DNA from: Labia minor
Lineage: Eukaryota; Arthropoda; Insecta; Dermaptera; Spongiphoridae
Length of the DNA: 64,000 nt
NCBI GenBank assembly: GCA_963082975.1
Contig: OY720344.1
Span: forward strand, 3,273,580-3,337,579
Reading direction: 5' to 3'
Shown: positions 1-56,056 of the stretch, one piece after another
Position numbering within the stretch: the first letter of the stretch is position 1
How the letters are laid out: every line of letters starts with the position of its first letter
Program-made: the position numbers and the translations under genes
Notes under the pieces: model-generated
What the model was told of the DNA's origin: nothing
Seen by the model: only the letters and a program-made list of their open reading frames with translations
Databases searched by the model: none

Positions 1-273
1 AGATTAAATTTAATCGTGAGTTGATAATTATATATATATATATATTAATTGAGATTTTGTTGTTAAATAAAAACTTATTAATATTTAATTACAATTATCA
101 TTTTATTATGATTTTTCTTATATTTTGTGCATCTATTTTAATTTTACATCATTATCACATCTGCTTTAACCCAAAGATGAATAAATTATTAACTTTTTAA
201 TATCATTGTGCTCTTGACAATATTAAAATTTCTTATAATAATTTAATACATTTTTTTTGTTTTTTTGTTTTAG

Positions 274-785
274 AAAGACTCAATGTCAGAAATTAAGAAC
301 AGGATGTAAATAACATATATAATATTATAAACTTGTATAATAATAATAATTAATTACTTAATAATTTTTTTTTTTTTTTATTTTTTAGTAAAAAAGACAA
401 TTAAAAAAATATATATACTTGATTGGTTTGTATCATTAAATCAACATAAAAAATATATATTATACTAAAGTTAAATACTATAGCTATAAATTTAATAAGA
501 AAATAAAGGTGAAAATCTATTTTCTCTTCTTAAATTTTTATATTTAAGATTTATTTCTCTAATATATATATTAATTTCATATATAATTTATTAATACAAT
601 ATTATTTATTTATTTACTTTTTATTTTATATTTTATTTTATTAGTGAAATCAAAGAATTGTCATGGATTATTGAAGAAGAGAATTCAAATGAAATAGGTA
701 AATATAAGAAGTGGGCAACATTTTCTATAGATATTTAGAATAACATTATAAGAATATTGTCATATTGCTTTCAATTAATAAAAAT

Positions 786-822
<37 letters not shown>

Positions 823-3800
823 CATGAATCTATTATTCTACAAATTTTCGGTTGATGAAGGGAGGATATGTATGGTAGTATTGAGAATTGAGGGAAAAAT
901 CTTTAATATATATTATAATTCACCCCTTTCTCCTTCAATGACCTAAGATTAGTATCATATATAATAATAATAATAATAACTCAAATATGTAATATTATAC
1001 ATTTACTAGTCATTTTGTATTTGGCCTATCGAAAATCACACCAATTTCAACTAATACAAATAGAGAAGATAATAATAATAATTTTATTTTAATTTAAAAG
1101 AAAATACACAATTATAGCCTAGTTTGTTTTTATAGTTTTCTAAAATCATATATGTATTTTCTTAAAAATGATTTCATGATTTTCATGATTTTTTATCCGA
1201 GAAATTATCATTAATAAATCAATTGTTTAAAAATTTTGAGGTCAGAATTATTTAACTATAATACTATGTTTATACTCACTAGTTAATGTATGCATTGACT
1301 AGGTACAGTATGTATCATTTCAAATAATGTATACTTTCACTAAAAGAAAATAAAAGTATGCATCAACTGGTTCGTGTATTCACTCACTGCAATTTATATT
1401 TTAACGCTACAATATACATATAAATATATGATCTATGTATTTAATAAAAAGATGGTGTTATATTTTTGATAATAAAATCAAATTAGAGTATTAATAATAT
1501 CACCTATTGATAAGTTTGTTATTATTATTATTATTATTATTAATTTCAGATTCCAATTATCTAATAGAAGATCCATATTTTGTAAGTATTAAAATATTAA
1601 CGTTCAAGTTATATATATTTATATATAATATTAAATTTTATTGTTTTTTTTTTTTTTTTTTTTCTTTTATTTTTCAGGTGAAAATGTTGGAACGTATACA
1701 AAAAGTATGAGTATAAATCAAATCATTGTTCTGGATGTTATTCTTTTAAATAAATATAAATAAATAAATACATTTTTATTTAATTATTTATTTATTTTTA
1801 TTTTTAAGGGAGAAGAAATGGAAATGTCAAAAGAACTTTGGGTATAAATCATTTTTTTTATTATTATTAAATTTTTTCATGTTTTTTATTTTTTTTTTTT
1901 TTTGATAATTATTCGTTTTTTTTAAATTTTTTTAAGGGTGATTTAAATAATCTTCTAAATTTAAAAGTATGTATAATATAAGAATATATAGATATATTAT
2001 ACAAACCTATTATACTTATAAATATTATATATGCTCGTATATATATACATAATTTTTTTTTTTTTTTTTTGAGGAATGGATCGATTATATAATGAATGAT
2101 CAAATTGATGTATCAAGAATGCGAAGAGATTCACAAAGTTCTCTTTCACCATTATTTAATCTAAATTTACAGGTAAAATGATTAAATTATTATTAGTTTA
2201 TTATTTTATTTTATTTTTATTAAACTATAAATAAGAATATTTATAATATATAATAAGTGTACTTATTATCTTTATTTCAATAGAATTCGATTGAAATAGC
2301 AAGAATTTCACCAATGTCACTCCCTCTTCCTTCACCATTTAATAATCAAAGTCTGCAAGTAAGATAAATTAATTCTTATTTATTATTTTCATTTCTATTA
2401 AATTTAAAATAAATATACTTATATTATGAATGGCACACACATTTATGTATATTTGTTATTTAATAACTAGAAAAATAATAATAATAATAAAACTCAAATT
2501 CTTTAAAAATTAAGTTATATAATATATAATAGTTGTTTCTTTTCTCTTTTTTTAGACTAGTTTATTACCAGTAAGTCCGTTGCCTTTTTTATTTATACCT
2601 ATATCTGATACTATACCAACATATAATCCACCTCGTTCACCTATAAATTTACGTCCAAGACCAAATTTACCTCCAATTGTAAGTTGTTTTTATATATATT
2701 TATCATGAAATTCTTAATACATATCTTACTTACTAAATTTATTACAATTCTTGGTCATTGTTTCGATACAATTCAAGTTTAATGAAGAAGATATCTATTT
2801 ATTTAAATCACAATCATTATATTAATATATGCTATAAACAAACAAGTAAACGTACACTTCTATACATCTATTAATTATAATTTATTTTGATTTTTCAGAC
2901 AGATTCACCAGTGATTATTAGAAGAAGAAAAAAAAGAAGGAGGCAATTAAGATCATCTAGAGAAGAAATACCCATGTAATATCATTTAAAACAATTTGAT
3001 AGTTTTATTTTTTTTAATTATACTTAATTAAATATTATTATTTATAAAATTTTAATTTATTTTATTACAGAAATGAGTATGAGAATTTAGAAATTCCGTT
3101 AAATAATCTAACCCAAGAAGATATACAGTAAAATATCTAAATATATTATATTCAATATTTATATAATAATAATAAAAATAAAATTAATAAAAAAAAGCAT
3201 AGGAAACACATGGCATAAAATAATAACATAATAAAATGTTATAAATATTAAATTTAATAATGATTTTTGATAATTTTAAATTTAGATTTTGATATAAATT
3301 AAAATTTTTTTTTCAATATTTTAATAATGAATAATCATTTCTTCTTCTTCTTTTTTTTTTTTTTAATTTATAGGGTTCCACGTGATTTGACACAAATTCC
3401 AGATGAAATAAATATACAAGGAACTTCAATGTAATTTAATTTTTATAGAAAATATTTATTTAATTTAATTAATTTACTTATTTTTTTAATTTTTTAACCT
3501 TAAAAAAAAAAAAGTTATATAAATGAATGAATCAACAGCAAACACTTGAAATTTAATAAAAACCAAAACAAAACAAAAAATTATATTATCTATGTTTATT
3601 GTTAGTAAACATATTACACATTTAATGTGAACTTTCTCTCTCTCTCTGTGTGTTTTTAAATGAAACAGTGAAATAAAATAAAACTAATAATAACAAAGAT
3701 TCTGGAATAAATAAAATTCCTTATGAATTTTAAAAAAATGACAATATGTTTTATACTTTTAAAAAAACTTATTCAATCATACCTATTATAAGTATAAGTA

Positions 3801-5429
3801 TAATATAATTCCAAAATTTTGAAATAAATGTTATTTTCATGTCATAATATATGTATATATGTATATCAAAAAAAATAGAATTGAACACAAATTATGAATT
3901 AGGAATGTGACTTGTGAAGAATGATTATCATTCTCATCATTAATTGAAAGTTTGGCATATCCAATTCAATTTTCTTGTTTCTTTGTTTTTAATTGATATT
4001 ACAAAGGGTTGATAAATAGTACTAATATATTTTATTAACAAAAATCTTAATTTATAAAAATGATCAATATATATAAATTCTTGCGAAAAGGAAACAACAA
4101 AATATGCGCTTCCATTTATTTGCTTTCTAATTTTTAACCCTTTACACATCAATTAGAATATTTTCAACGCGGTTTCGATATATCTCTTATCTATCTAACT
4201 ATATTGTAAAATCTCTTAAATTATCAGATAATAGAAGTAAATAGAAAGAAAGGATTGATTGATTGATTTCAATGAATGGCAATTGTTATTTTGTGGCATT
4301 TGTTATCTATCCATCTTTTATTGATATGATAAAAATATGTAGAGAGAGAGAGAGAGAGAGAAATATATATGCATCTTTTGACTAATCAATTGATTTTACA
4401 GGTGAACTATTAATTTAGCTTAACGCTTATCATTACAAAAATTACACAATAATGAAAATGTTTTGACTTTTTTTTTTGTTACTTCTTTTTAATACTTATA
4501 ATTTATAAATAATTATTATTTTGATATTTTTCAATTTATAGGACTACATCTGGTTTGCCCCAAATTCCAGAAGAAATAATTAATAATATACAAGACCCAA
4601 ATGAGAATATTAACATTAATGAATTAAATATACCAGAAACTTCAAGGTAATTTTTAATTTTTTTTTTTATTGCTTAAATTTAAACAAAAATCGAGAAAAT
4701 AACTCTGTATAATATAACTCTGGATAATATAAATGTGTTTATGTTTATAAATATTAAAATATTAATAATTTTCAAAGGAAAAATAAGTCCTTTAATAAAT
4801 AAAATAATAAATTATTCAACGTAAAATACATTTTAATTAATAATTATCTTATATCACATTCACAAATCTGGAATTTAATCAAATAGAATTAAAAAAAAAA
4901 TGAAATCGTACTTACAATTAGTTTATACCTAAATATAATATATTTTTATTATATTTATTAATTTATAGGGTTATTACTTCTGATTTACCACAAATTACAG
5001 AAGAAGTAATGAATAATATACAAGAACCAATTGAGTATATTAACATTGATGAAATAAATATACCAGACACTTCAAGGTAAAACTTGTATTTATTTCATTT
5101 ATTTAATTGTTTCTAAAAAGAAATTGAGGTATTAATGTAAGATTCTAACTATTTATTTGATTATTAGTTGCTTAGTATCGTATTTGGTTAATTCATTGAT
5201 GGTAATATTTTAATACTTGTACTATCGACGTTAATTACCTTTTAACTTTTACGTAGTTTGGCCCTAACCTCCCCCTGGATCGCTGCAGCACCCCACGAGG
5301 GGGCGGTATCATCCACTTTGGGAATCACTGAACTAATAGATACTCTTATATTATATCATATCATATTACATTAATACACAGATAGAAGAAAGCAAACAAA
5401 CATTGAAATTAATCATTTTTGTATCTCTT

Positions 5430-5491
<62 letters not shown>

Positions 5492-6898
5492 ATTAAATTA
5501 CTTTACTGTAAAAGAGTTTGTGTTTTTGTGATTGTGATTATTTCAAATGAGAGAGATACATATTGTCAATGTATTCATTAACTAGTGAGTAAAAACTCCA
5601 ACTGAATCGCATAAATGATAATTATTAGTTAAATAATTCTAACATCAATGATAAATATAACAAAGCAGCAAAATCTGAAGATGATATAACATTTAGTTAC
5701 TCCACTAAATAATTAATATTTATTTATTGATTTATTTCAGAAGACCAATTGAAGATGAAATATATAATGAAATTAAAAAAAATTATGATGCATTTCTTCA
5801 ATTACATCCACCAATCAAGTAATAAAAAAAATCTTTTATTTTAAAATTTATTTAATTTTTTACATTTTTTGATCATCAAACAAATTACTATTTATTTATT
5901 TTTTATTATCTCTCCTTTTCTTCACTCTAAAATATTTCTTCTTAATACTTATTATAACACGAAGGTAGTTTGATAAATTAGCTACTGTAATTAATTAATT
6001 AATTTAATTATAATAAATTTTATGTGAAATTTTCAATTGCAATTGCAATTTTTAAAGGGTCGACCACTTTGATGTTTATTGTTAATAGTATAGAATTCAT
6101 GGCAAGCGGAGGATTCATGTTGGGGCGTCGTTCCTGGGTTCTTTCCGGGTATTCATTGATACATCTTGGCTTGGCAGTAACTTCTTACTTAGTATAACCT
6201 CGAGTTATTACATTGTTCGCTTTTTAGGTATTTGTTCTAAATGTACAAACGTGAGAATGCCAATATTTGTTTTAAATGTTTATTTATGGCATATTAATAA
6301 CATTGCCTTATTAAAAGGCATTTTTATGCTTATATATTACAATAATTGGTATCATCATTATTTTCATTATTTTATTTTGATTTAACTTTAAGTAAATTAT
6401 ATATTTTAATTATTTTAATTTAATATAATTATTTATTTATTTATTTTTTTAGTTTTGAATTTCCTACAGAAGATCAATGGATTCAATCTTATTACAATAT
6501 GAAGTATATTTTCAAATTAATTAATATTATTAACTATTTTATCGGAATTAATCTAAAAAATAAATTGTTTTTTGTTTTTTTAGAATATTTAGAGAAAAAA
6601 TGAAAAATCTTTTAATTAACTGTAACTCTCTTTATGAATATAATGCTCAAATACCAACTAGTTATACTAAAGTTTGGCATGCATATGAAATATTATTTGG
6701 TGGGTTAAATAATAAACTATTGCTTTAATATTGTTTGATATATAATTAAATATGTAGATATTTTCATTAATTAATCTTACATTTTTACTAATATTTACAG
6801 AATATTTAAGAGAAAATAATGATGATCATGAAGAAGAAGAACAAGAAGAACAAGAAGAAGAAGAAGAAGAAGGAAGAGATGAAGAAGAAGAAGAATAA
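274..6898 (+). CDS. Unrecognised gene made of at least 18 short exons (hypothetical protein, about 413 aa)
   Basis: Exons are 274-305, 645-697, 1550-1581, 1678-1704, 1809-1841, 1937-1966, 2074-2172, 2284-2358, 2556-2678, 2899-2975, 3071-3127, 3374-3430, 4542-4646, 4969-5076, 5741-5818, 6453-6503, 6584-6699 and 6801-6898. Every intron is GT-AG with a pyrimidine-rich acceptor, and the joined 1251 nt are open and in frame to TAA at 6896. Junction phases are 2,1, seven of 0, seven of 2, then 1. The first in-frame ATG is at 283, but the true start may lie upstream of the window. From that ATG the protein has a Pro/Ser-rich part (about 107-165), a basic block RRRKKRRR (about 173-180, possible nuclear signal), three related repeats (about 211-300), a segment with conserved-looking Trp and Tyr (about 334-375) and a Glu-rich tail (391-413). 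It has no signal peptide and one Cys. I do not recognise the family. The exon chain is strongly supported; the function is unknown. Confidence 0.82.
789..821. repeat. (AT)n microsatellite in an intron
   Basis: An uninterrupted AT dinucleotide tract lies in the intron between exons 645-697 and 1550-1581. It is the first of many such tracts in the window. Confidence 0.95.
3374..5076 (+). repeat. Tandemly duplicated phase-2 exons inside the microexon gene
   Basis: Exons 3374-3430, 4542-4646 and 4969-5076 encode versions of one unit. The second and third share the pattern TS-G/D-LPQI-P/T-EE followed by NNIQ, then INI-N/D-E-L/I-NIP-E/D-TS, and the first is a shorter form with DLTQIPDEINIQ. All begin and end in phase 2, so copying one exon with its flanking intron keeps the frame. 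Intron sequence around them has diverged beyond obvious similarity. This indicates growth of the protein by exon duplication. Confidence 0.8.
5252..5330 (-). mobile_element. hAT-type element terminus (fragment)
   Basis: This is a GC-richer patch in an otherwise AT-rich intron. Read on the minus strand it begins CAGTGATTCCCAAAGTGG, the usual form of a hAT terminal inverted repeat, and continues through GATACCGCCCCC. The other end and any transposase are missing. It sits between exons 14 and 15 of the microexon gene. Confidence 0.5.
5432..5487. repeat. Poly(T) tract of about 56 bases
   Basis: A pure T run in the intron between exons 14 and 15. Read on the minus strand it is a poly(A) of the kind left by a retroposed RNA, but no retroelement body is recognisable beside it. 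Confidence 0.9.
6020..6341 (-). mobile_element. Diverged LTR fragment related to the LTR family at 13 kb and 53 kb
   Basis: Read on the minus strand this begins TGTAATATATAAGCATAAAA, matching the start of the solo LTR ending at 13838. It also carries the GTCGACC-containing segment next to an A/T-rich AATTGCAATTG region that is shared with 13.3 kb and 27.7 kb. The distal LTR end (TATACGACA) is not seen. It lies in the intron between exons 15 and 16 of the microexon gene and is therefore tolerated there. Confidence 0.5.
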
Positions 6899-7004
6899 AT
6901 ATGAAATATATATATATATATATATTGTTTTTGAGTTTCTTTAATTTACTTTTATTAATTTAATTACTTGTTAAAATTTATTAAATACTTTTCAATTTTA
7001 AAGA

Positions 7005-7010
7005 AATAAA
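7005..7010 (+). terminator. Poly(A) signal AATAAA of the microexon gene
   Basis: This is a canonical AATAAA about 107 nt after the TAA stop at 6896-6898, followed by an A-rich stretch. It lies upstream of the inserted LINE, so the gene's 3' end looks intact. Confidence 0.5.
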
Positions 7011-7127
7011 AAAAATAATTTAAATTTAAATTTATATTTGATTATTTGATATAATGTGATTTATAAATATTTGTTAAAGTTTAGGAAATATACACATTTT
7101 ACTTTTTTAATATTTATTTATAATTTA

Positions 7128-9051
7128 TGCGAAATTGTTTCCAGGTCGTTGTAAACAACAGCTAACCATCGATGCTGTCATTCTTAAACAAACTCAGCTT
7201 GGGAAACGAAACTTAAGTATAGGATATATCGACTACACTAAAGCCTTTGATTCAACCCCTCATGACTGGCTTATAAAAATCCTGAAAATCTACAGAGTCT
7301 CTACTAATGTTGTAAAGTGTCTTGAGAGCATGATGTCGGCCTGGCTAGCTAACATGCATCTTGATGGCACAAATATCGGCAAAATTAATATTAGAAGGGG
7401 AATCTTTCAAGGGGATGCTCTTTCGTCGTTGTGGTTTTGTCTTGCATTGAACCCACATTCAACATTATTAAATAAGGAGAACATCGGTTATAGAATCAAA
7501 AGGAATATGAGGAAAATAAATCACCTTTCATTTATGGATGATATAAAGTTATACGCGGAGAACCGTCAAAAATTACAAAACTTAATCAGTACAGTGAAAA
7601 ATTTCAGTGATGACATTTGTATGTCATTCGGCTTAGACAAATGTGCCATAATTAACATCAAAAAGGGAAAACAAGATTCCATGGGAGAACCTTTAGACGG
7701 CATTCAAGAGTTAAGAGCTGAAGATAGCTATAAATATCTAGGTCTATATCAAAACATCAGATTTGACCACACCCAACTTAAGAAGTCGTTTCAAGAAAAA
7801 TACAGGAAAAGAGTATCGAAAATTCTAAATACAAAATTATCAGGAAAGAATGTTATAATAGCCATCAACACCTGGGCAGTACCTGTACTCACTTATTCAT
7901 TTGGAACAGTGAAATGGTCAGATACTTCTTACAAAATTTTGCTGTCTACATCCAAACTCTTCTACAACAAGATTATATCTATCAAGAAAAGAAGGTGGAA
8001 GAGGATTGATCGATATATTCAACCTATGCAGATCAATAGAGGCAAATATGAGGAACAGAATTCGAACATCTGAAGACGAACTTATGAAACTCATAACTCA
8101 AGTGGACAAGGGCTATACTCCCCTACACCTGAGTGAGAATGACTTCATAATTAATAAGAAGGAAAGGGAACCCTGGAGAGGTAAAATACTTCACGGAAAA
8201 TTTCCAAACTTACTCGAAAACGGGAACGTGGATAAGGATGCTTCTTCCTTCGGGTGGCTGAGAGATGGAAACCTTTATCCGGAGACTGAAGGTTTTAATA
8301 TAGCCATCCAAAAGACCGGGCAATTCGGACTAAAAACTACGAGAAATATATCCTAAAGACCAACGTTGAGGACAAATGTAGGAAATGGTGAAAATATTGA
8401 ACATATAATGGGAGGATGTTCTGCGTTGGTAAGTTGATAATGCCTATCTAAATAGACACAATCAACTTGCGAAATTAGTTCATCAACAACTGGGCATAAA
8501 ATATGGATTGTTAGACATTACCACGCCACCATACTACAAATACGACCCAGCACCAGTCCTAGAGAAATCCAACATCATCCTTTACTGGGACAGACCTCTA
8601 TTCACTGACAAGTCAATTGATTACAACAGACCTGATCTCCTTCTCATAAACAACAACACATGCTCAGCCACAATAGTTGAAATAGGAGTCCCTCTCACAC
8701 ATAATCTCAATAAAATTGAGATAGAGAAAAAACAGAAATATGAGCAACTCGCTTTTCAGCTGAAGCTCGACCACGTATCTATTTGTCCATTAGTGATGTC
8801 TGCAGAGGGAGTTGTCTCCAAGACCTTCCATTTTAATATTAAGAAACTTCAACTTAATACAAACATCTTAAACGAATGGCCAAAGAGCGATTTTATTACA
8901 AACTTGCCATATCGTACGAAAGTTTCTCAATTAAAAAGCACACCACCACAGATATGTGAGCCAGGGTGAATTCCCTTTCCACATCGACCGAGCCTAATTC
9001 AAACAACATCACAGGGATAGGTCAATATTTCCGGCACCAATGCTGAGAAAG

Positions 9052-9235: not shown

Positions 9236-9730
9236 TTAATTATTAAGAACCATATTTAATGTATCAATATAAGTAACAAAATAATTTATATAGAAATGTG
9301 ATAAATGATTATTTTGCATTTTTAACTTTTCAAATTTTTCATATTCATATTCAAGTTTTTCATTTTCATTTTTTCGGAAACATGATATTGTTATATCTAA
9401 ATATTCTAATTCTTTTGTGCATTGTAAAAGTTTATCAAGAATTTGCGATAAGGTTTGTGTATTGTAAATTAATATTTTCAAATATTTAGTTTTTGGTGTT
9501 ATCATTCCATTACAAGCATTTAAAATTGCTATATCATTACGTTTTTGCAGACCTAAATCAAGTATTTGATTTAGAATGAAATCTTGCATATATTGAGTCA
9601 TGTTTGACGTAATAAAATCATGTGCATCATCATTTATATGATTAATTGTATTCTTTTCATAATACTTATATAGAATATTTGCAATTCTATTGCAAGTTAA
9701 TTCAAATGCCGATTTTGGTTGATATATTTT
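9236..9730 (-). CDS. Unrecognised protein, last exon of a minus-strand gene
   Basis: On the minus strand a clean acceptor (TTTTGTTTTAG, ending at 9731) is followed by 165 open codons to TAA at 9238-9236. The first internal Met is 43 codons in, so the open stretch extends well upstream of that ATG to the splice site, as expected of an exon. The product is rich in Asn, Ile, Leu, Lys and Glu, probably all helical, with three Cys near ELTCNR, LNACNG and LLQCTKE, one more in ISCFRKNE, and a charged stretch NENEKLEYEYEKFEK. No known domain is visible. AATAAA on the minus strand at 9188-9183 would end the transcript. The gene faces the microexon gene tail to tail. Exon confidence is good; function unknown. 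Confidence 0.65.
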   Translation of the reverse strand, partial: KIYQPKSAFELTCNRIANILYKYYEKNTINHINDDAHDFITSNMTQYMQDFILNQILDLGLQKRNDIAILNACNGMITPKTKYLKILIYNTQTLSQILDKLLQCTKELEYLDITISCFRKNENEKLEYEYEKFEKLKMQNNHLSHFYINYFVTYIDTLNMVLNN

Positions 9731-15479: not shown

Positions 15480-16100
15480 TAATCTCTCGGATGATAGTTG
15501 TGTAGGCGAGAAAAAAAAAATAAAAATGAAGAGAGAGAGAGAGAGAAATTTTCTCTGAAGAAGCCACCGATGAATGGGACGCGTGACCGCTTCGCGTGGG
15601 ACTCACTCACTCAGTTTACCATGAAAACGCCTGTTTTTTCTCTCTCTCTCTCTCTCTCCCTCCATCCATAGTTACCCTCACCATTCTCTTTCTTCTTTCT
15701 TCCACCTTCTCACACTCCTTCCAAATCTACCTTGACGTTGTTGTCGTATCTCTTGGCCCTGCCCACACATTCATTCACTTTGCTTCAACTATAAATATTG
15801 ATTCTCTATTGATTAGAACCCTTTTTGTTTGTTAAAAGTGAACTTGGATGATACGTCCACGCCTACAACATGTCCATCCATCCATGTTACACACTCTTCT
15901 CTTTCTCTATGACACCCATCAAACCATTTCCGGAAATTCATTTGCCTTCTACTACATATATATATATATATATATATATAGGTGGGTAGGTATAGGTATA
16001 CTATTCTCTTGTACCCCCCATTTCATTAAAAACATTTCCATAATTCATCAAATTATTTATACATTCACGAAAGAAAAGAAAAGAAATCAATGAACTCGAT
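15480..16100. other. Intergenic with a short GC-richer patch
   Basis: The patch at 15555-15620 is GC-richer (GGGACGCGTGACCGCTTCGC). Open frames at 15596-15835 and 15848-16093 span TC and TA microsatellites and show no recognisable product, so they are not called as genes. The patch may be regulatory or an old repeat. Confidence 0.3.
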
Positions 16101-16511
16101 GAGTTTTGATTGATTGATTGATTGATTACAATACTAAAAGAATTTTCTATTTTTTTTTTTTTTAAGATTTTAAAAAGTCAAAATTTAAATGATATAAAAT
16201 ATAAATTTACCTATTAAAAGTATTTTTTTATTGAAAATATTAATTTATTTATGTAGTTATTGTAATTATTCAAAAATAAATTGATTTGATATTTAAGTAT
16301 TAAAGATTTTAATTTTTTTTTGTCGTTAATAAAAATTAGTAATTATAAAAAAATTATAAATTAAATTATTTATTTATTTTTTTTTATAATAATTTTATAA
16401 TATTTAAAAATGATTTCTGATAAAGTGCGAAATCAAAATTCCTGTCACTTAAAAAAATTTTAATTATAGAAATTTGTTCATATGAGTAGAGTAAGTATAA
16501 AAACAAACATG

Positions 16512-16968
16512 CTTGGGTGGGGTGAAAAGTTTCCGGCCTGACCAAGAAAAACGATGTTTTTAAATTTTTTTTTTCCTATATTTATTCAACATAATCTCCA
16601 TCAACACTGATACATTTCTCATAACGGTGTTCTAATTAATTTAATTAAGTAATAAAATTTGATTTAATTTAATTTAAGTCTCATCAACAGTTATGAATCG
16701 ACGCCAAAATTCGTTTGGATTACGCCTACAGCGCCAAATTGTCATTAGAAATGGTTTTTCGAATCAGTTTTTGATGTAACGTTAGCAAACGCATCACCGA
16801 CGTTGCACAAAGCTTTCCATGTTCAAAGGCTTGAGCAAAATATTTCGCACACGTTCAGCTATCTTGAATGTTGAAAAATAAAGCAAAAAAAAAAAAAAAA
16901 AAAAAAAAATTTAAATAATAATACATCGTTTTTCTTGGTCAGGCCGGAAACTTTTCACCCCACCCTCG
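16512..16968 (-). mobile_element. Deleted mariner element with inverted ends and transposase fragment
   Basis: Inverted repeats of about 43 bp face each other: GGGTGGGGTGAAAAGTTTCC at 16515 and its complement ending at 16965, with a TA still visible at the right edge. The minus strand between 16680 and 16760 encodes NPNEFWRRFITVDET, the mariner block carrying the first catalytic Asp, preceded by a broken LLTLHQKLIRKTIS. An A run fills the middle. The element is only about 450 bp and cannot encode transposase. Confidence 0.85.
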
Positions 16969-16969
16969 T

Positions 16970-17574
16970 ATTAATTGTAAGTATAGGGGATATATATTTC
17001 AATGAATATAAATATACTTATATATATAAATAAAAAAATCAATTAAATTTCAAGATTAATTTTTAAAATAGCATTTTTTTTTCTTTTTCTATCAATCGAT
17101 AATATATTGTAGATAAAAGGTAGATAATGTCTTGAAGAGATTTATTATCATTTTGAATCGTTTATAGAAGAGAATATTAAAGGAAATTATTAAAAAAAAA
17201 GTGATTAATTTATTTTTTATCAAATTTTTTTAAAGATAGATACTAAAACATTTTACTGGTGGTTCTCTTTTATAAATAGTGGTTTCATATATCTTGAGAT
17301 ATACGATAGCTACTAGTTGAATGGATTCAGAAGTGATTTGGTTAAACGCCCCCGGGGCGCAAATGTTGTTGCCTCTCCTATCACTCACTGATCTTTTAAT
17401 TTAAAATAATTAAATACATGTAAGTAAGGGAAATTCTCTAGAGGAAATGAAGACTAATACATGATCTAGATATCTAGATTAAGTTTAAAGAACTGCTATC
17501 TCGTTTGTTAATTTTCAATATAAAATTTCTCTAATTTATTTGGAGAATAAGAATATCACACAATTTAATGTTAA

Positions 17575-17611
<37 letters not shown>

Positions 17612-17678
17612 AAAAAAAGGAAAAAAGAGAAACTCAGCAAACATCAATTTAGTTTGTATATTATTATTATTATTATTA
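16970..17678. other. Intergenic AT-rich DNA
   Basis: It contains a (TA)n tract at 17580-17608 and an ATT run at 17660-17680, the latter being where the Tigger-like element is inserted. No gene is seen. Confidence 0.55.
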
Positions 17679-18453
17679 TAAGCATTCCTCGTAGTTACGG
17701 CAGGTTAGGTTCCGAAAATATGTGACGTAAATCGAAACGACGTAACTCAAAGCACCATTTTCCATATGTTTCCATACAAAATGAAAGGTTACGTTCCCCA
17801 AGAAATTTTAATAAAAAATGAAACTGATTTTTAATAATATATTATCTTTATTAATTGTAGGTACTATTAATAACTAAACTAAACTTTTTGTTTGAAAAAA
17901 ACTATCAATTTTAGTTTGTTTTGCTTCTTTTTTCTTTGCTTCATACATGTCTCTGTAACACTGATATGCCGTTTTAAGTTGCGAACACTTTATTCTAAAT
18001 TTGCATCATTTTCCTCAAAAATATTCATTGCATGCTGTAAACTTGAAAAAGCTTTTGATGTTTTTCAAAGTAAGCCCCGTTTCTATCTATCTAGCTACAG
18101 ATGATAATTGAGCTCCTCTCTGTTTTTGTGGTCTGCCATTTCAATAAGATCATTTATCAGTAAGTTCTTCTGCATGAGAATCTAACAAATCTTAAATACC
18201 GTCAATTTCTACTGACTTTTTTATTACTTTTTTCTACTTACTTCAATATTGGGTAAGGCATTGGCTAAATCAACAATGTCAGAAGTAATATTATCCATCT
18301 CTTACCACTGCAGAGTACTAATTAAAACAAAACGTTAAAAAACGTGCTGTGTGCCTTGGATGTACTAAACCCTTGACGTATCTCGAATCTTGGGACTTAA
18401 GTTTGAGGAATGGTATCAAAATATTGTTTGACGTAACTCGAGGATTGCCTGTA
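17679..18453 (-). mobile_element. Tigger/pogo-like element, degenerate
   Basis: The right end reads on the minus strand as TACAGGCAATCCTCGAGTTA and the left end as TATAAGCATTCCTCGTAGTTA, giving inverted ends beginning with TA. Near each end sit the GACGTAA/ACGTAACTCGA blocks typical of Tigger-like ends. The minus strand around 18139-18190 gives LDSHAEELTD and then a frameshifted IEMAD-like stretch, as found in the C-terminal half of pogo-type transposases. Many stops; non-functional. Confidence 0.65.
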
Positions 18454-18849
18454 TTTATTGTTCCGAAAATTATATTAAATATGTATAGGTATTATAGATA
18501 AATATTAATTACAAATTGAAGTTTAAAAAAGTGTAAAATTTCATTCATGCAATATTATATTGATTCAGTGACTGAATGTGGGTATGTACCTTGTGTACAT
18601 ACATATTGTATATTAAAGAGAACATGAAAAAAAAAATATATATATATATATTATTTATATCTTTCAAATGTGTGTAAAATATGTATTTATGTCTATTAAT
18701 GATATTATAAATAGATTATAAAATTAGATAGATATTAAGATGATGATGATCATATCTTAAAAACAAATCTTCCAATTAATTAGTTTCTATTAAATTTTTA
18801 GAATATAATATGTATTTTATTTATAGTTAAGGATAAATTTATTATTATA

Positions 18850-19330
18850 TTAATTATTTGTGAAATTGGTGAATCCTGTTGTTATGAGAAAGTGGATAAC
18901 CCTGAATTTTAAAGTCACCGGTCTATTTTGCTTTCATCAAAGAAGCATTGTTTTGTTTACTGACATTCTCCAAAGCCATCTTAATTACTTTGGACGTTAT
19001 GTGGGCAAACATTAATTAATTCCTAATTATTAGCGGTTACTTTTATTCTAATAAGCAGGCGGCTGGTAACGGAAAGGGGAATTCCACTTATATTCAGACA
19101 ACACACATTCGCTTATTTAATTAATTAATAGGATGCAGAGGTTTGGGTGTTACAGGCATTAATCATGAAGCGCGCGTTGCTTGATCGATCCCGAAGCCTT
19201 AATCAGCGGCTCGCGAGTGAGATGTCGTGTCGTGGACGCCTTCCATCCAGACCGCCGAGGATCTTTGTCGCGTGGGCGCTTGAAAGGAAGAGATGAGGTG
19301 GGGGGTGGTGGAGAGAGGTTCATAGGTGGT
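18850..19330 (+). promoter_or_regulatory. Candidate control region upstream of the delilah-like gene
   Basis: Composition changes from AT-rich simple sequence to balanced, complex sequence about 770 bp before the start codon and stays so up to the gene. It has a TCF-like CATCAAAG near 18937, repeated TAATTAATT homeodomain-type cores near 19014 and 19120, and GATCGATCC and GCTCGCGAGTGAGATGTCG blocks. No open frame explains it. Enhancer or promoter-proximal function is inferred from composition and position only. Confidence 0.45.
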
Positions 19331-19404
19331 TTAGAATAGGGTATTTGCGGAGAGGAAGTGGGAAGGTAGAGTGAGCGAGAGGGGTAGGCAAGCGCAGTCT
19401 CCGT

Positions 19405-19480
19405 GGTCCAGCGCAGGCCGCGTCAGTCAGTGCCGTTCGGGCAGCACGAGAGCCCGCTCCTTTCCAGGGCACAAGCAATC
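19405..19480 (+). promoter_or_regulatory. Possible transcription start of the delilah-like gene
   Basis: Two overlapping arthropod initiator matches, TCAGT at 19423-19427 and 19427-19431, lie in the GC-rich block about 190 bp before the coding start. I see no TATA box and no convincing DPE. Confidence 0.3.
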
Positions 19481-19578
19481 AGAAACAACATCAGTTAACA
19501 AAAAACAAAAAAAAAAAAAAACAAAAAATAAAAAGTTGAACGTAAGAGACTTGAATGCGCTGTGTGTTTGACGTCACA

Positions 19579-19622
19579 ATGAATTTTGATTGTTTTTTGA
19601 AGGGCATTGTGCCATGAAATGA
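19579..19622 (+). other. Two short upstream ORFs before the delilah-like start codon
   Basis: ATG at 19579 opens a 12-codon frame ending TGA at 19615-19617. ATG at 19614 opens ATG-AAA-TGA ending at 19622, overlapping the main ATG at 19619. Both are out of frame with the main protein. If the leader is transcribed as inferred, they could lower initiation at 19619 or favour the in-frame ATGs at 19628 or 19640. Confidence 0.5.
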
Positions 19623-20242
19623 AAAGGATGACAGCCGCGATGGATACCGCGGATGATACCGCTGCCGATGCTAACAACAACAACACACCGCCTGTTGCCG
19701 AGGATAAACGCAAGTATTCCCTTCGGCCACGAAATTCATTACGTGTTGGTCGTTACTCACCGGAGGTGCCTGCTACCCTTGTGGATATTCAACAACCCAT
19801 TGAACCAGAACATCACCCTAGCAAACCAGCACCACTTAGCAAGTATCGACGTAAAACTGCAAATGCTCGTGAGCGCGATCGAATGCGTGAAATCAATGCG
19901 GCGTTTGAAACCTTGCGCCGTGCTGTACCAAGTCCGGAGCTCTCGCACGGTTGCAGTGAAAAGTTAACTAAAATCACAACACTCAGGTTAGCCATGAGAT
20001 ATATTACTGAGTTACGTGCACTTTTGGAATGTGAACCACAAATGCAACAACCGATTGCAGGGCCACCAATGCTTCCATTTGACACTCCATTCGTGGAGCA
20101 TGCAATGCTTACACCACCCGATTTTCACGAACATGGACTAATTGCTTCTGAATTGGAACAATCCCTAGGAGGGCTGGCTGACACACTAACAGATCCGGCT
20201 CTTCTTACACCCCCCGAGTGTTTCGGAGACCTGACCCCTTGA
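19619..20242 (+). CDS. Delilah/taxi-like bHLH transcription factor
   Basis: A single exon of 207 codons encodes a class II basic helix-loop-helix protein, expected to act in the nucleus as a heterodimer with a Daughterless/E-protein on E-boxes. The basic region is KYRRKTANARERDRMREIN (residues 75-93), with the DNA-contacting Glu and Arg of NARER. Helix 1 is AAFETLRRAVP, the loop includes a GCSEKLTK stretch, and helix 2 is ITTLRLAMRYITELRALL, ending near 136. KYRRKTANARER together with MREIN-FETLR and EKLTKITTLRLAM is the signature of insect Delilah (taxi wings), which acts in muscle-attachment (tendon) cells and wing development. The N-terminal 74 residues are low complexity. The C-terminal tail repeats LTPP three times (TPPDF, TPPECF), possibly an activation or corepressor motif. 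The first in-frame ATG is chosen; it has a weak context and further in-frame ATGs follow at 19628 and 19640. Confidence 0.92.
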   Translation: MKRMTAAMDTADDTAADANNNNTPPVAEDKRKYSLRPRNSLRVGRYSPEVPATLVDIQQPIEPEHHPSKPAPLSKYRRKTANARERDRMREINAAFETLRRAVPSPELSHGCSEKLTKITTLRLAMRYITELRALLECEPQMQQPIAGPPMLPFDTPFVEHAMLTPPDFHEHGLIASELEQSLGGLADTLTDPALLTPPECFGDLTP

Positions 20243-20765
20243 TTTCTCCATATTTTTGTTGATCAGCGATCCCCGTTAATTCCGCCCTGTGCCATACACG
20301 CGAGCCCTGTTGTACCTTGCAGTGCCTCATCACTTTCACTCTAAATTGTGTCATTGCGGTGTAATCTGTCCGACTCCATAAAAGGGCATAAACGTGTAAG
20401 TCGAAACGTCACACTACCCACCCATAACTGTATGATGCGTAGGTTCGACCAAGGACATGACGTCACATCTTGTAAAATACCCGAAAGCTGGGCACTTGCA
20501 TAGGCATTGCTTTTTTTTCTGTTTCTTTTTGTTGAAGTTAGATAGATTGTAAGTTTTATAACATTATTTCAATTTTCCTTTCTCTCCTCTATAAACTCGT
20601 CATTTTTTACTCTATCTGTGCCAATATTTTTGTATATTATTATTATGACTCTTTATACAAAGGTTGTGAGACATATCAAACACTATGTGTGACAAATATA
20701 TTTATATAATATATTTATATTGTATGTTATTGCTAAATAAAAGATTTTATCTAAATATGGAATGC
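20243..20765 (+). other. 3' UTR and poly(A) signal of the delilah-like gene
   Basis: Moderately GC-rich non-coding sequence continues about 260 nt after the stop, then becomes AT-rich. AATAAA at 20736-20741 is the best poly(A) signal and is followed by T-rich sequence. TGACGTCA at 20458-20465 is a perfect CRE palindrome, though its place in a UTR makes its meaning unclear. Confidence 0.6.
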
Positions 20766-20769
20766 ATTT

Positions 20770-20787
20770 TTTATTTTATTTTTCAAT

Positions 20788-20821
<34 letters not shown>

Positions 20822-22997
20822 TAAAGTGGCCACCCGGTGACTAATTTGAATTAAACTGTGACTAATTCAAAAATTACAAGCACAATTTATTTGTTAGGGC
20901 ATCGCCTTAGGAATTATTTCTTTCTGATTCCACACGTTCAGTATATATATGATGATCCCATGTATAAATTTTTATTTAATTTCGTAATCTTCCATCCCTT
21001 CTATCTCTTTCTCCCTTTCTCCTTCCTTTCTATCATCATCATTAGCCGAAGGGGCCTTTAATTAGAATTTTAAATAAGTTGAAATATATATATATATATA
21101 TATCTAAAACAATTTAATTAACATAAGTTTGAATTATTATTATTATTATTATTAGTTTGTATTTATAAACATTTTATATCTAACAAAAATTATAATTTAC
21201 ATAATTCATAGTATATGTATAATAAAAAAAAAATTATACTTTATTTTGAAATTAAACAAAATAATAATTTGTCAAAATTTTATTTTTATTTATTTATTTC
21301 ATGATTTATTGAAAAAAATTTCGATATAATAAAAATTTTATTATTATTATTATTATTTAAATGAAAATGAATCTAAACTTATCAATATTTTTTAAATTAT
21401 TTGAATATACATATAATTAAAGTATTTTCATTTAATTTAATAAATTCAAATATTTAATTATATATTCTTTGAATCCCACACTAATTAATCTTGCTAGAAT
21501 AGAAAATAATTGATTATTTATTATAAGTGATTAATAAACTAATAAATAAAAGAATCTAATATAAAATCAATATTTTATTAATTAAATATACCATTTTATT
21601 AATTATTATAAATTAACAATAATTATATAGTTTATTAGTTAATATTATCTAATTTTGATTAGGCAAACAAAAATTAAGAAATTAATCATAAAATTTGAAA
21701 TTTGAGTATTTTTTTTTATCTGAAATAAATGGATAATTTAATAATTAATATAAGGGCAAATAAAAAAAAACAAATTTAATTTTTCCATTTGGATATAAAT
21801 TCTCTTCTAAATCAATTGAGGAATTTATTTTTTAAACAGTTGCAAATATATCAACTTTTTAATTAAATCTTTTTTTTTATGAATCAATTAAATTAATAAT
21901 ATTTGTGACAAAACAAGAAGAAAAAAAAGAAGCGAAATATTTGATACATTCTTTCATTAGTAATAAAAAAAAAATTCAAACGGGAAATAGAAAATTACAA
22001 AGTTATGCCAAATATTTTATTTTATTTAGCTTCTCTATCATTCTTATTTTTAGTAGAATTTTATTACTTTTTTACCTTTTATATATATATTTCTTACCTT
22101 GTATATTTATTTTGAGGCCAATAGCTATTCAAATTCCAATCTTTTGTTCTTCTCTTTCTCCCACTTTTTTTTTCTTCTTTCTCTCTTCCCCCCCCCCCCC
22201 CACGACAAATACGCCATTCATATGTAACTTTAGATTTATATTTTCTTTCAACTTCTTACCTGTAGGTGGTTATTGACTTCTTCGGGTAAAAACAATAAAA
22301 TAATCTTATTAATTAACGGAATAAATTGAAATTAAATAACACTGATAAGAGAGTAAAAGTAAAAGAATACTAATAATCATCATTTTTTATTTATTTATTT
22401 TGTTAAAATAATAATAATAATCAATTTTAAATATTTATTTTTTCAATTAATAAATTTTAAATTAATTGTCTACCACTATGTATACATATACAACAATAAT
22501 TATTTGTAATTTTTAATTTGTGATATTTAAAATAATAATTATTAATTATTAATAATTAATGGGTTTTTTTTATTTTTTAATAACTACAAGCTAAATTTTC
22601 TAAAAATATCTAATTTAGAATTCAAAGAATATAAATAATAAATAATGAAGATAAATTCTATATTTTCTAATCCACGTATAATAGAACTATAACAAAATTG
22701 TAAGTAATACTTACTATATATGTAGTATTATAAATAAACTAAGTATTTGGAAAAATTGTTCTTTCTCTTATTTATTTATTTATGAATTTTTCTTAAATGG
22801 AAAATATATACGAGTATTTATAATTAGAAAATTAGAAATATTATTTATATTTAGGAAATTAGAAACCTATACTTATCAAGATTATATAATCATTTCATTA
22901 TTTTTATTTATATAATTTTCACACATGTTATATATAAATATATTAAAATAAAAAAATATATAATAAAAATAGGTAGGTAAGTAAATTGAGAATATTA
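20770..22997. other. Intergenic AT-rich DNA
   Basis: A TA tract at 20792-20817, ATT runs, and AT-rich sequence without splice chains or repeat termini. The open frame at 21905-22276 lacks an ATG start and crosses T and C runs, so it is not a supported gene. Confidence 0.6.
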
Positions 22998-23168
22998 AGG
23001 TTCAAAGGGGCGGATAAGTTGGACGACTGCCCGGGCGCCAAATTTTGAGAGGCGCCGACCTAAAAAAATAAAATATTTTTTTACATTCATTATTTGAAAA
23101 ATAATTTTTTATGAAAGAACGTCAAATTTTGTTTTCCCAGGGTGTTCCAAACCCTGGAACCGGCCCTG
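22998..23168 (-). mobile_element. Small hAT-like element (MITE)
   Basis: The right end reads on the minus strand as CAGGGCCGGTTCCAGGG. The left end (GGGGCGGATAAGTTGG) is a diverged counterpart followed by CCCGGGCGCC, and the interior is AT-rich. This matches the plan of short hAT derivatives. The 8-bp duplication is no longer clear. Confidence 0.45.
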
Positions 23169-23574
23169 TTCGATGGATCAATACTATAATCATTAAAATA
23201 TCCCCTTACCTATACAGTCCAATCTCTATTAATAAAAAGATTTTCATTTGAATTTTATTTAAATAAATTTTTTCAGAAAAAAATATAAATATTAATTAAT
23301 ATCAAATAAAATTTAATTTTATTGATTTATTGTAATTAAATTCCTATGATTAAAGTAATTTTTTAAAATTTCTTTTAAATTTTTTTTTCTAAAACTAACT
23401 TACTAAACTTATTTCTTTAAATCTACCTAAAAATTGAAATAGAAATTTTAGTTATTATTTTTGATAAGTGTAATTCCATTTATCTTTTCACTTAATTGTA
23501 TTTTATTATTATTATTATTTTTTAATCATTTATCATCCTTTCTAAATAAGATATATACTTTTTACAATTAGTGA

Positions 23575-23960
23575 CCTATAGTGTAGTGCTGCCGCCTACC
23601 GGAACAATGGACAAACCATTTGGCGCCGTCCTCTGAATCAACTCCGCCCAGGCGAGTCTTGAAGCCCACCAATCAGCATTTCTCACTCACTCCACTCACT
23701 TACATAAATTACATAAAACTTATCACTTTCTAAGCGACTAACTGACCTCAATTGAATCGAATTGACTGCTGTTGGTGGTTATTGGTGGTTATTGATGGTT
23801 GTTGGTGGTTGTAGGTGGTTGTTGGTGGTTATTCGACTCGTGGCGCTTCCAATTTCTCAATTGGATTCTCATATTCTCCACATTCGTACTTACTTACTTA
23901 CTTACTTACTTGCTTGCTTACCTATATCTAATTATATACACCGTGATCGATACCCATGTT
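23575..23960. repeat. GC-richer patch followed by GGTTGTT and ACTT minisatellites
   Basis: The patch 23578-23690 contains GCCGCCTACCGGAACAATGG and GGCGCCGTCC, without a good frame. It is followed at 23770-23832 by imperfect copies of GTTGGTGGTTATTG and at 23887-23922 by TACT repeats. The two overlapping open frames here are translations of these repeats. Confidence 0.5.
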
Positions 23961-24000
23961 GATTTATTGCCAATTATATAATTGAAACCACCAACAAGTG

Positions 24001-26258: not shown

Positions 26259-26539
26259 AATGATTTCAATAAAAAAAAAAAACCTCTGACTTTGTACGTC
26301 CTACGCAAGGACAACGCCTATCAATGATCAGTAGAACGGGTCCTCTCCACCTTTACCTTGATTTTCTTAATCCGAGGCGCTATCAAGTAGCTTTTCCCCA
26401 AGGTTGTTCCCAGAGGCTGGGTTGACTCCGTCCCATAGAGTCCAGCTAGGGAAATTCCCTTGCCAGGCCCGGGACTTGAACCAGGGAGCATGTGAATTCG
26501 CTACCCGCTCACCCAATGGCGCCTTAAATGATTTCAATA
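26259..26539 (-). mobile_element. tRNA-like SINE, copy 1, with 13-bp target duplication
   Basis: On the minus strand it starts GGCGCCATTGGGTGAGCGGG and has a B-box-like GGTTCAAGTCCCGGGCC. It ends in GTCAGAGG followed by a run of T. The sequence AATGATTTCAATA flanks it at 26259-26271 and 26527-26539, which shows retroposition. The head looks tRNA-derived but I cannot say from which tRNA. Confidence 0.85.
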
Positions 26540-28608: not shown

Positions 28609-28940
28609 GTACTTACAATATACGATATATAGTCAGTGGGTTACTCCAGGAGAGCCATCCACATTTCATTTATTAGTATGATTACTGACAGAAAATTCGT
28701 TCATGGCAAAGATTTGGAAATAATTTGAATGTATGAATGAATGATTGAATCTTGGCACCATAAGCATTCTAGAACTCTTGCAAAAAAAAAAATATAATCA
28801 TTCATAAAGCAAATTCAAAAAATAAGATAAAAATTTATATAAAAATAATAAATAAATAAAAAAAATGTATCCTTTATGTTATAAAAAATATATATATTAT
28901 GTCAGATACTACACTGCCTTGTAGAATTAGTTAGATTTTC

Positions 28941-29125
28941 TGGCAAAGGGAATTTCCCTAGCTGGGGTCTATGGAATGGAGTCAACCCAGCCTCCGGGAA
29001 CAACCTTGGGGAAAAGCTACTTGAAAGCGCCTCCGATCAAGAAAATCAAGGTAAAGGTTGAGAGGACCCGTTCTACTGATCATAGGACACCTCATTGATA
29101 TAATCCGACTTGGTAGGCGTTGTTT
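28941..29125 (+). mobile_element. tRNA-like SINE, copy 2, 5'-truncated
   Basis: This copy begins inside the family at GGCAAAGGGAATTTCCCTAG and carries the shared GTCAACCCAGCCTCCGGGAA and GACCCGTTCTACTGATCATAG blocks. The tRNA-like head and the GTCAGAGG end are lost. Confidence 0.75.
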
Positions 29126-30214: not shown

Positions 30215-30215
30215 A

Positions 30216-30826
30216 CAGTGTGGACAATAACCAAGGTGACTGGTGCTGTAACTCCTTTTCACGGCGCTACCTAAGATACTCAAAACATAATTAAATAGGT
30301 ATACGAAACCTCGATAACCAAAAAAAAAAAAAAAAACCGTTTTCTAGTGTTGATACTTTTTCAGAAATCCAATTTTTTTCATATCAACTTTTTCTACCTT
30401 GTCACAAAGAAACCATGAACCCTACACTCCAAATTCGCGCCCTGAGTTTCCCGAGCAAGGCTCATGGAGGCTATTGCACGACAACGCTCCTGCGCACAAG
30501 TGCCTAATTGTGACCGAGTTTTTGGTGTTCTTATCGCCCATCCTCCCAATTCCCCTGATCTAGCCCCAGCTGACTTTTGGCTATTCATTAAACGAAAAAT
30601 GGCCATGAAGGGAGAGCGTTTTTCATCGGTGGAAGAAATCCAGAATTACGTAACCGCGGCCCTAAAGGGGCTCCAAAAGAATGACTCAAGAATTCATTTT
30701 ACAAAAGATTTGAAAGATGTATCAATGAGGAAGGAATGTATTTTAAATAATTTGAAATAAAATTTATAAATTTGTAACCCGTTTTGTTTTTATGGTCTCA
30801 GTCACCTTGGTTATTGTCCACACTGT
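30216..30826 (+). mobile_element. Mariner element with C-terminal transposase remnant
   Basis: Perfect inverted repeats of about 27 bp (CAGTGTGGACAATAACCAAG and so on) bound the element at 30216-30242 and 30800-30826, with TA at the right edge and CA (mutated TA) at the left. Inside, one frame gives LHDNAPAHKC with the second catalytic Asp. After a one-base frameshift, the 30464-30760 frame gives HPPNSPDLAPADFWLF with the third, then KMAMKGERFSSVEEIQNYV. The spacing fits the DD34D mariner class. The first catalytic block is deleted, so it is inactive. Confidence 0.9.
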
Positions 30827-35614: not shown

Positions 35615-35935
35615 TCTATTTTCTTCAAAAAAAAAAAAAAAAAAAAAAAACCTCTGACTTTGTACGTCTTACGCAAGGAAAGTCGGTTATATAAATGAAG
35701 AGGTGTCCTATGATCCGTAGAACGGATCCTCTCAACCTTTACCTTGATTTTCTTGATAGGAGGCGCTATCAAGTAGCTTTTCCCCAATATTGTTCCTGGA
35801 GGCTGGGTAGACGCCGTCCCATAGACCCCAGCTAGGGAAATTCTCTTGCCAGGCCCGGGACTTGAACCCGGGACCAAGTGAATGTGAGGCAGGTTCGTTA
35901 CCCACACACCCAATGGCGCCATCTATTTTCTTCAA
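35615..35935 (-). mobile_element. tRNA-like SINE, copy 3, with 14-bp target duplication
   Basis: The flanking duplication TCTATTTTCTTCAA is at 35615-35628 and 35922-35935. Read on the minus strand the body starts TGGCGCCATTGGGTGTGTGG, has GGGTTCAAGTCCCGGGCC as B box and ends GTCAGAGG followed by about 20 T. This is the clearest copy for defining both ends. The frames at 35494-35959 are translations of the SINE. Confidence 0.9.
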
Positions 35936-43770: not shown

Positions 43771-44076
43771 ATATGATGAAAGAAGGCGCCATTGGGTGTG
43801 TGGGTAGCGAACCTGCCTCCCATTCACATGGTCTCGGGTTCAATTCTCGAGCCTGGCAAGGGAATTTCTCTAGCTGGGTGGGGTCTATGGGACGGAGTCA
43901 ACCCAGCCTCCGGGAACAACCTTGGGGAAAAGTTACTTGATAGCGCCTCCTATCAAGAAAATCAAGGTAAAGGTGGAGAGGACCCGTTCTACTGATCATA
44001 GAACACTTCCTCATTGATAGACATTGTCCTTGCGTAGGACGTACAAAAGTCAGAGGTTTGTTTTTATATGATGAAA
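43771..44076 (+). mobile_element. tRNA-like SINE, copy 4, with 11-bp target duplication
   Basis: ATATGATGAAA flanks the copy at 43771-43781 and 44066-44076. The body starts GGCGCCATTGGGTGTGTGGG. Its B box is GGGTTCAATTCTCGAGCC, then GGACGGAGTCAACCCAGCC, GACCCGTTCTACTGATCATAG and CCTTGCGTAGGACGTACAAA follow, ending GTCAGAGGTTTG and T. It is nearly full length and in forward orientation. Confidence 0.9.
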
Positions 44077-52810: not shown

Positions 52811-53549
52811 TGTAATATATAATCCTAAAAAATACATTTTTTATGTATATAAGGGTGCGAAAGCGAGAACTTTCATTTTTGAACACGTGCTAAATTGAAG
52901 AAAAAGACGATTGGTCATGGGACATGTGTCTGCACATGTACAGAGACCCATCCATGTGTTCAAAGTGGGGGAAAGGTTTCATTATTGGTGAAAATGATAT
53001 TTGAGTTAGTCTTGATCAGGCATTGGAGGGAGACATACATATCCCTGCAGGAAGGACATCATACACAACCCCTTTTTTGAGAAATGTTGCTGCACAATAG
53101 ATGTTCCAGTTAAATCCGCAGGAAGACAATCAGGACTCAAGTCTCCAATGAACTCTCCATTCCTTTCTTTCATGCTAAGTGATAACACTTTCATAATTAA
53201 TAATTAATTATAATTGCAATTGCTAAAATATAAATTAAATTTCTTTTAATTTATATTTCTATTTTTTACGGTACCTTTCAATATGTTCTATTTTATATTA
53301 ATTTCATTATTATCTATTTTGTAAATTTAAGTCTCCTAGTTTTATTAAATAAATAATTTGTTATAATTTTATATAAGCATTTCAAATTGAACCTATTCAA
53401 TCTTATTATTTCCCATATCAACCTACGCGGATTCAATAACCTTTTTAATTATCCAAAATTCATCCAGAGTGCTACCAATTAATTAAACTAATTTTATAAT
53501 CCATTTTTTTCTTATAAAATACCAACCCCCTTCTATTTTATATACGACA
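52811..53549 (+). repeat. 5' LTR of the non-autonomous element
   Basis: It starts TG and ends CA. It carries TATATAAGGGTGCGAAAGCG as a likely TATA/start region. Compared with the 3' LTR the first 350 bases are almost identical, while the last 60 or so before TATACGACA differ strongly. The short frame starting at 52895 is broken here by a longer T run (7 rather than 5) than in the other LTR. Confidence 0.88.
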
Positions 53550-53735: not shown

Positions 53736-53911
53736 TTTATGTCTGTTTTATTGAATTTTTATAGGATTTATTTGATTTTGACTTCTTATATTAGTTGATT
53801 TTGCGGGATTCTATTTCTGGAAAATTAAAAGCAAATTGCCTATTGTTTATAATATTCAATTTTTGTCGCGGTAAAAAATTGATATAGTTTTTCATGCCTT
53901 TCTGATTATTA

Positions 53912-55317: not shown

Positions 55318-56056
55318 TGTAATATATAATCCTAAAAAATACATTTTTTATGTATATAAGGGTGCGAAAGCGAGAACTTTCATTTTTGAACACGTGCTAA
55401 ATTGAAGAAAAAGACGATTGGTCATGGGACATGTGTCTGCACATGTACAGAGACCCATCCATGTGTTCAAAGTGGGGGAAAGGTTTCATTATTGGTGAAA
55501 ATGATATTTGAGTTAGTCTTGATCAGGCATTGGAGGGAGACATACATATCCCTGCAGGAAGGACATCATACACAACCCCTTTTTGAGAAATGTTGCTGCA
55601 CAATAGATGTTCCAGTTAAATCCGCAGGAAGACAATCAGGACTCAAGTCTCCAATGAACTCTCCATTCCTTTCTTTCATGCTAAGTGATAACACTTTCAT
55701 AATTAATAATTAATTATAATTGCAATTGCTAAAATATAAATTAAATTTCTTTTAAGTTATATTTCTATTTTACGGTACCTTTCAATATGTTCTATTTTAT
55801 ATTAATTTCATTATTATCTATTTTGTAAATTTAAGTCTCCTAGTTTTATTAAATAAATAATTTGTTATAATTTTATATATAAGCATTTTTCATATTGAAC
55901 CTATTCAATTTTATATTTCCCATATCAACCTACGCGGATTCAATAACCCATTTAATTATCCAAAATTCATCCAGAGTGCTACCAATTAATTAAACTTATT
56001 GTTTTAACCAAATTTTCTCATAAAATACCTGCCCACTTTACCTCTTATATACGACA
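55318..56056 (+). repeat. 3' LTR of the non-autonomous element
   Basis: Same length and termini as the 5' LTR. A weak purine tract (AAAGGA) precedes it at 55312-55317. A 103-codon frame from 55402 is open here, but it is a reading of LTR sequence and is broken in the other copy. Confidence 0.88.

Follow-up and report, generated by a model that had tools for sequence, protein, structure and literature searches.

Does a chain of very small open stretches at the edge of a sampled piece of AT-rich insect DNA make up a real gene, and if it does, to which kind of many-exon gene does it belong? We addressed this in the lesser earwig, Labia minor (Dermaptera), for a locus on its chromosome 1 (contig C1 of the assembly), at the start of a window of 64,000 nucleotides (nt), by which we mean the whole stretch of DNA analysed (chr1 3,273,580-3,337,579). 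Positions are given within the window unless they carry the prefix chr1. An initial annotation of the locus had described 18 exons without a known domain and had linked their layout to the bicycle effector genes of other insects. We predict that the locus is a real, single-copy earwig gene of about 20 small exons and 438 codons, which encodes a non-secreted, largely disordered nuclear protein, and we see the chances for and against this prediction as evenly balanced.

The splice chain and its coding frame

With exon borders set by hand, positions 283 to 6898 on the plus strand contain 17 introns, all with GT-AG borders, and 18 exons that join into 413 codons and a TAA stop with no internal stops. 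The exon count, the 17 junctions and the stop-free frame of the initial annotation were therefore reproduced from the sequence. The exons are 27 to 123 nt long, and 23 of the 32 nt of exon 1 are coding in this 18-exon model. The coding part is 51 nt or shorter in six of the 18 exons and 30 nt or shorter in three. GC content is 0.28 in the exons and 0.18 in the introns, and T-rich tracts precede the AG at the 3' ends of the introns. As a yardstick for exon size we used matches to a myosin-head model in this genome: among the 88 matches listed, the median length was 229.5 nt and three were 123 nt or shorter, although these matched stretches are not whole exons and the yardstick exaggerates the contrast, because short exons are harder to detect and some of the matches cross stops.

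The locus was scored with a gene finder, a small hidden Markov model (HMM) whose splice and codon weights are generic averages and were not fitted to this gene. Two backgrounds were used, one fixed and AT-rich (first run) and the other set for each segment (local). Under the local background, the plus strand of 1-8000 scored 125.4, against at most 50.8 for any of the window's 15 remaining strand-segments, at most 23.4 for 120 order-3 Markov shuffles (15 x 8 segments) and at most 56.6 for 18 strand-segments from nine 8-kilobase (kb) stretches outside the window, six of them scattered and three flanking. The same 8 kb scored 35.9 and 42.0 when reversed without complementing. Under the fixed background, the plus strand of 1-8000 scored 121.3 and 60 shuffles of 1-7000 reached at most 14.6, and 11 of the 18 exons were recovered to the base. 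Exons 1, 2, 3, 6, 11 and 15 are less certain, as is the 5' border of exon 16; these were placed by frame fit and by eye.

All exons lie on the plus strand. Exon 1 of the initial annotation (274-305, with its ATG at 283) lies between an AG acceptor preceded by a T-rich tract and a GT donor, and is doubtful. Exon 2 (645-697; phase 2 in, 1 out) is in frame with exon 1 or with an upstream exon, U3, described below, and like exon 3 (1550-1581; phase 1 in, 0 out) it has GT-AG borders and fits the frame, and the generic HMM skips it. Exons 4 to 9 are symmetric in phase 0-0. Exon 4 (1678-1704), exon 5 (1809-1841), exon 7 (2074-2172), exon 8 (2284-2358), which carries SP (serine-proline) sites, and exon 9 (2556-2678), which is proline-rich and also carries SP sites, are each backed by GT-AG borders, frame and HMM. 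For exon 4, one of the HMM runs gave a longer version (1678-1736). Exon 6 (1937-1966) has GT-AG borders and fits the frame, and the generic HMM skips it.

Exon 10 (2899-2975), which encodes the basic run RRRKKRRR, a possible nuclear localisation signal, is again backed by borders, frame and HMM, and exons 11 to 16 are symmetric in phase 2-2. Among these, exon 11 (3071-3127) has GT-AG borders and frame and is skipped by the generic HMM. Exon 12 (3374-3430) and the tandem duplicates exon 13 (4542-4646) and exon 14 (4969-5076) have all three kinds of support. Exon 15 (5741-5818; GC 0.23) has GT-AG borders and frame; in its place the HMM takes two GC-rich stretches, 5257-5305 (GC 0.69) and 6094-6148 (GC 0.55), which we set aside as unlike the composition of the gene, and this is a judgement. 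Exon 16 (6453-6503) fits the frame, and the HMM agrees on its donor and places the acceptor at 6470. Exon 17 (6584-6699; phase 2 in, 1 out), with the sole cysteine of the product, and exon 18 (6801-6898), with an acidic tail and the TAA stop, are both supported by GT-AG borders, frame and HMM.

Start of the gene and exon symmetry

In the 10 kb upstream that were examined, three further small exons on the plus strand fit by splice signals and frame: U1 (chr1 3,271,409-3,271,433), which contains an ATG, U2 (chr1 3,271,863-3,271,888) and U3 (chr1 3,272,017-3,272,063). U2 and U3 are also picked by the joint HMM run, which covered 4 kb upstream and the window. Joined to exon 2, the three give a stop-free model of 20 exons and 438 codons, with a splice sum of 158.1 over 19 introns versus 140.7 over 17 in the 18-exon model, and a coding sum of 152.3 versus 143.9. 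No further small exons were found between U1 and exon 3 in a scan with strict cut-offs. As U1 to U3 connect to exon 2 in frame, exon 1 and its ATG were probably wrong as the start, and the predicted gene probably begins at chr1 3,271,409, some 2.2 kb before the first position of the window, and ends at window position 6898. Exon 1 is absent from the HMM paths through the window and present in the joint path. Since the chains U3-exon 1-exon 3 and U3-exon 2-exon 3 both keep the frame, mutually exclusive use of these two exons is possible, and in the former chain exon 1 is read in another frame than the one used by the earlier start. To judge from sequence, exon 1 may be an alternative first exon or the mutually exclusive partner of exon 2.

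Symmetric exons make up 12 of the 18 internal exons of the 20-exon model, a number reached by 62 of 20,000 phase-order shuffles. Duplication or skipping of such exons leaves the frame intact. The clearest duplication is that of exons 13 and 14, whose protein likeness stands at z 19.7 against shuffles; they show 14 changes across 34 codons, of which 11 alter the amino acid, and one in-frame codon insertion or deletion. The same repeat may recur in shorter form in exon 12, whose DNA is 89% alike to exon 13 and 80% to exon 14 over 35 nt. In addition, the 3' part of exon 7 and exon 8 are 74% alike in DNA over 53 nt. Among 171 exon pairs compared as protein, the likeness of exons 7 and 8 (z 2.7) and that of exon 12 to exons 13 and 14 (z 3.1-3.2) were at the level of noise, and the unrelated pair of exons 6 and 16 reached z 3.4.

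Several observations weigh against a real gene of this form and function. The evidence consists of genomic DNA of one species, and the nuclear role is drawn from composition alone. The untrained HMM failed to place seven exons to the base (1, 2, 3, 6, 11, 15 and, at its 5' border, 16). Under the fixed background, the plus strand of 16001-24000, which holds a basic helix-loop-helix (bHLH) gene, scored 138.8, above the 121.3 of the gene, and three further segments scored 93.8-108.5; such high scores elsewhere reflect the advantage that this background gives to GC-richer DNA. At the 5' end, the gain from the upstream exons is just about 7 net of an HMM cost of about 9.6 per intron, and the joint run did not choose U1 and continued from U3 to exon 1 by way of two further stretches, without including exons 2 and 3. 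The alternative chain through exon 1 gives 431 codons and fits about as well, with a splice sum of 159.6 versus 158.1. For exons 13 and 14, dN/dS (the ratio of replacing to silent change) is about 0.91, a value that shows little sign of constraint between the two, and in 49% of trials 14 random changes introduced no stop; together these mean that the pair is no proof of constraint.

The weakly supported exons and the high fixed-background scores elsewhere could also be read as signs of a chance chain of open stretches, or of a decayed gene, in AT-rich DNA that is rich in GT and AG. We consider this highly improbable, given a score of 125 versus at most 57 in the controls with a local background, GT-AG borders at 17 of 17 junctions and the difference in GC between exons and introns.

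Composition of the product and its possible relatives

The 438-residue product has a net charge of -43, an acidic tail, a single cysteine (residue 381), the basic run RRRKKRRR at residue 198 and six SP sites at residues 116-193. No hydrophobic N-terminus was found in either 5' model by hydropathy, which was our only test for a signal peptide: the highest mean over 11 residues within the first 35 was 0.06 in the 20-exon model and 0.52 in the 18-exon model. The initial annotation had noted that a visible signal peptide and Cys-Tyr-Cys motifs were lacking; the first point agrees with the hydropathy of both models, and the second with the one cysteine and the absence of any Cys-Tyr-Cys spacing. 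In make-up the product looks more like a nuclear protein than a secreted one, and on our best reading it is a fast-evolving, largely disordered and probably nuclear protein. It is this composition that suggests a nuclear location, disorder and a regulatory or docking role.

We also looked for other copies and for relatives. The whole assembly of 604,477,936 bases (genome size 604.50 Mb in the account of PMC11937785) was searched in six frames with the 413-residue model minus its acidic tail as query, which gave 11 matches at E values up to 1, all 11 at this locus. In this search counts for large families are lower bounds and very small exons are undetectable; the first six exons of the 18-exon model had no match even at their own locus, so the search could overlook copies that consist of very small exons. 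Searches by tblastn also yielded no further copy: the best E value was 1.5 for the window beyond the gene, and 2.5 for flanks of 30 kb upstream and 10 kb downstream. The earlier remark that the product has no known domain is borne out by Pfam, where neither the whole protein nor its two ends matched above the curated cut-offs, and by the PDB, where none of 177,635 distinct sequences matched the tail-less 413-residue query at E up to 10. Below the Pfam cut-offs we rejected hits to RepB_C (E 0.03 and 0.39), STI1-HOP_DP (0.05), PBP_sp32 (0.64) and EP400_N (0.78). The gene was not met among the matches listed in the literature on related topics, in which no search was aimed at it.

Fast-evolving nuclear proteins often fail scans that compare one sequence with profiles. 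A single genome locus and a nuclear type of composition would suit a highly diverged copy of a known and widely conserved insect gene, with similarity too low for such scans. The lack of a Pfam match for the whole protein or its ends and of a PDB match for the protein without its tail stands against it, and we regard this as a tentative alternative with an appreciable chance of being right. Meiotic, kinetochore, Piwi-interacting RNA (piRNA) or telomere proteins come to mind as candidates, and these are unsupported guesses.

Bicycle genes have about 17 exons on average and nearly all of their internal exons are in one phase, according to PMC9168663, which also provides a logistic classifier. 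As described in PMC13041983, their proteins are marked by a secretion signal and saposin-like folds and in most cases contain Cys-Tyr-Cys motifs; some are without cysteines. Bicycle genes form large families and occur in aphids, phylloxerids and coccids. The earwig gene shares with them its many small exons, its runs of same-phase internal exons and the lack of a domain seen in the sequence, and these exon features are what would speak for a bicycle-type effector gene. It differs in its earwig host, its single locus, its mixed phases, its one cysteine without Cys-Tyr-Cys spacing (a weaker point, as PMC13041983 reports some bicycle proteins without cysteines) and the absence of a hydrophobic, signal-like N-terminus. 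With the coefficients given in PMC9168663, which were trained on an aphid and used with a cut-off probability of 0.72, the classifier rejected the gene at a logit of -38.2 to -58.0 over two gene models and two phase conventions. The bicycle link that had been drawn earlier is thus contradicted by host, copy number, cysteine content, N-terminus and classifier, and we give it almost no credence. There is no ground to think that the earwig gene works like a bicycle gene, and it is not filed as a member.

A second comparison is with the micro-exon genes of schistosomes. According to PMC4350168, much of their coding part lies in symmetric exons, whose skipping causes no frame shift, their products carry a signal peptide and they appear restricted to flatworms. 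Alternative splicing of the micro-exons counts as a further mark of the class. The earwig gene resembles them in the symmetry of its internal exons (12 of 18). Unlike them, its product has no signal peptide visible by hydropathy, and exons of 51 nt or less make up just eight of its 20. It could be asked whether the gene encodes a secreted reproductive or glandular protein that owes its diversity to changes in its exons, in the manner of the micro-exon genes of blood flukes, since its small exons are symmetric and one of them has been duplicated. The non-hydrophobic N-terminus in both 5' models, the basic run, the acidic tail and the single locus make this very unlikely. The gene is like insect orphan genes in having no recognisable relatives in Pfam or the PDB, and unlike insect orphan genes in general in its many small exons.

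For the predicted nuclear protein, we propose that helical N- and C-terminal modules, guessed from the sequence, would flank a serine/proline-rich linker, and that the basic nuclear localisation run, two to three repeats of the form LPQI.EE..NNIQ and the acidic tail would also lie between them. Such a product might serve as a docking or regulatory scaffold, and its repeat number could change through skipping or duplication of symmetric exons with the frame kept. In a bolder version, an earwig-specific nuclear gene would evolve as small exons that do not affect the frame are gained, lost and swapped, with exons 1 and 2 as a mutually exclusive pair; this would place a micro-exon gene system in a free-living insect, outside the parasites, and we think it unlikely. 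If the gene is transcribed as modelled, many small exons and the lack of a known domain do not by themselves mark a gene as a parasite effector, and a similar layout would occur in an earwig gene that is apparently single-copy and has no visible secretion signal. The locus would also be a caution that exon layout judged by eye is no sure sign of effectors, as the published classifier itself rejects the gene, and a test case for the annotation of small exons in very AT-rich genomes.

Neighbouring features and other parts of the genome

Just downstream of the gene, 7111-8969 holds the remnant of a retroelement of the non-long-terminal-repeat (non-LTR) type, with a reverse transcriptase match in 7111-8070 (Pfam RVT_1, E 3.6e-19). 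The reverse transcriptase stretch is followed by open stretches at 7913-8356 and 8433-8966, the latter without a Pfam match. On the minus strand, an open stretch of 164 codons at 9236-9730 has an acceptor-like 5' border by eye and no Pfam match, and is perhaps the last exon of another gene. The bHLH gene at 19601-20242 is a single open stretch in a GC-richer island (Pfam HLH, E 1.6e-18) and resembles insect delilah. Scans of the window with Rfam and for transfer RNA genes found nothing.

The rest of the window contains several repeats. Direct repeats at 52811-53549 and 55318-56056, 96% alike, surround 1.8 kb with an open stretch of 319 codons (53906-54865), and the whole is perhaps a non-autonomous element of the LTR type. 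A short repeat, mostly 84-93% alike and perhaps a short interspersed nuclear element (SINE), occurs at 26268-26497, 28940-29121, 35636-35926, 43781-44069 and 57877-58173. The loci 16515-16965 and 30215-30826 hold another short element, whose inverted ends span about 60 bases with 91% likeness, and a pair of identical 28-base inverted ends, which enclose what looks by eye like the remnant of a mariner-like transposase.

Elsewhere in the assembly, satellites of about 161 bases make up part or all of both ends of contig C1 and of the start of contig C2, with no array of the TTCGG telomere repeat reported there. This is in line with the truncated ends described in PMC11829193. On contig C5, four tandem matches to part 376-436 of the myosin-head model lie at 27689203-27690659. 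In muscle myosin, mutually exclusive exons are expected to give such tandem matches.

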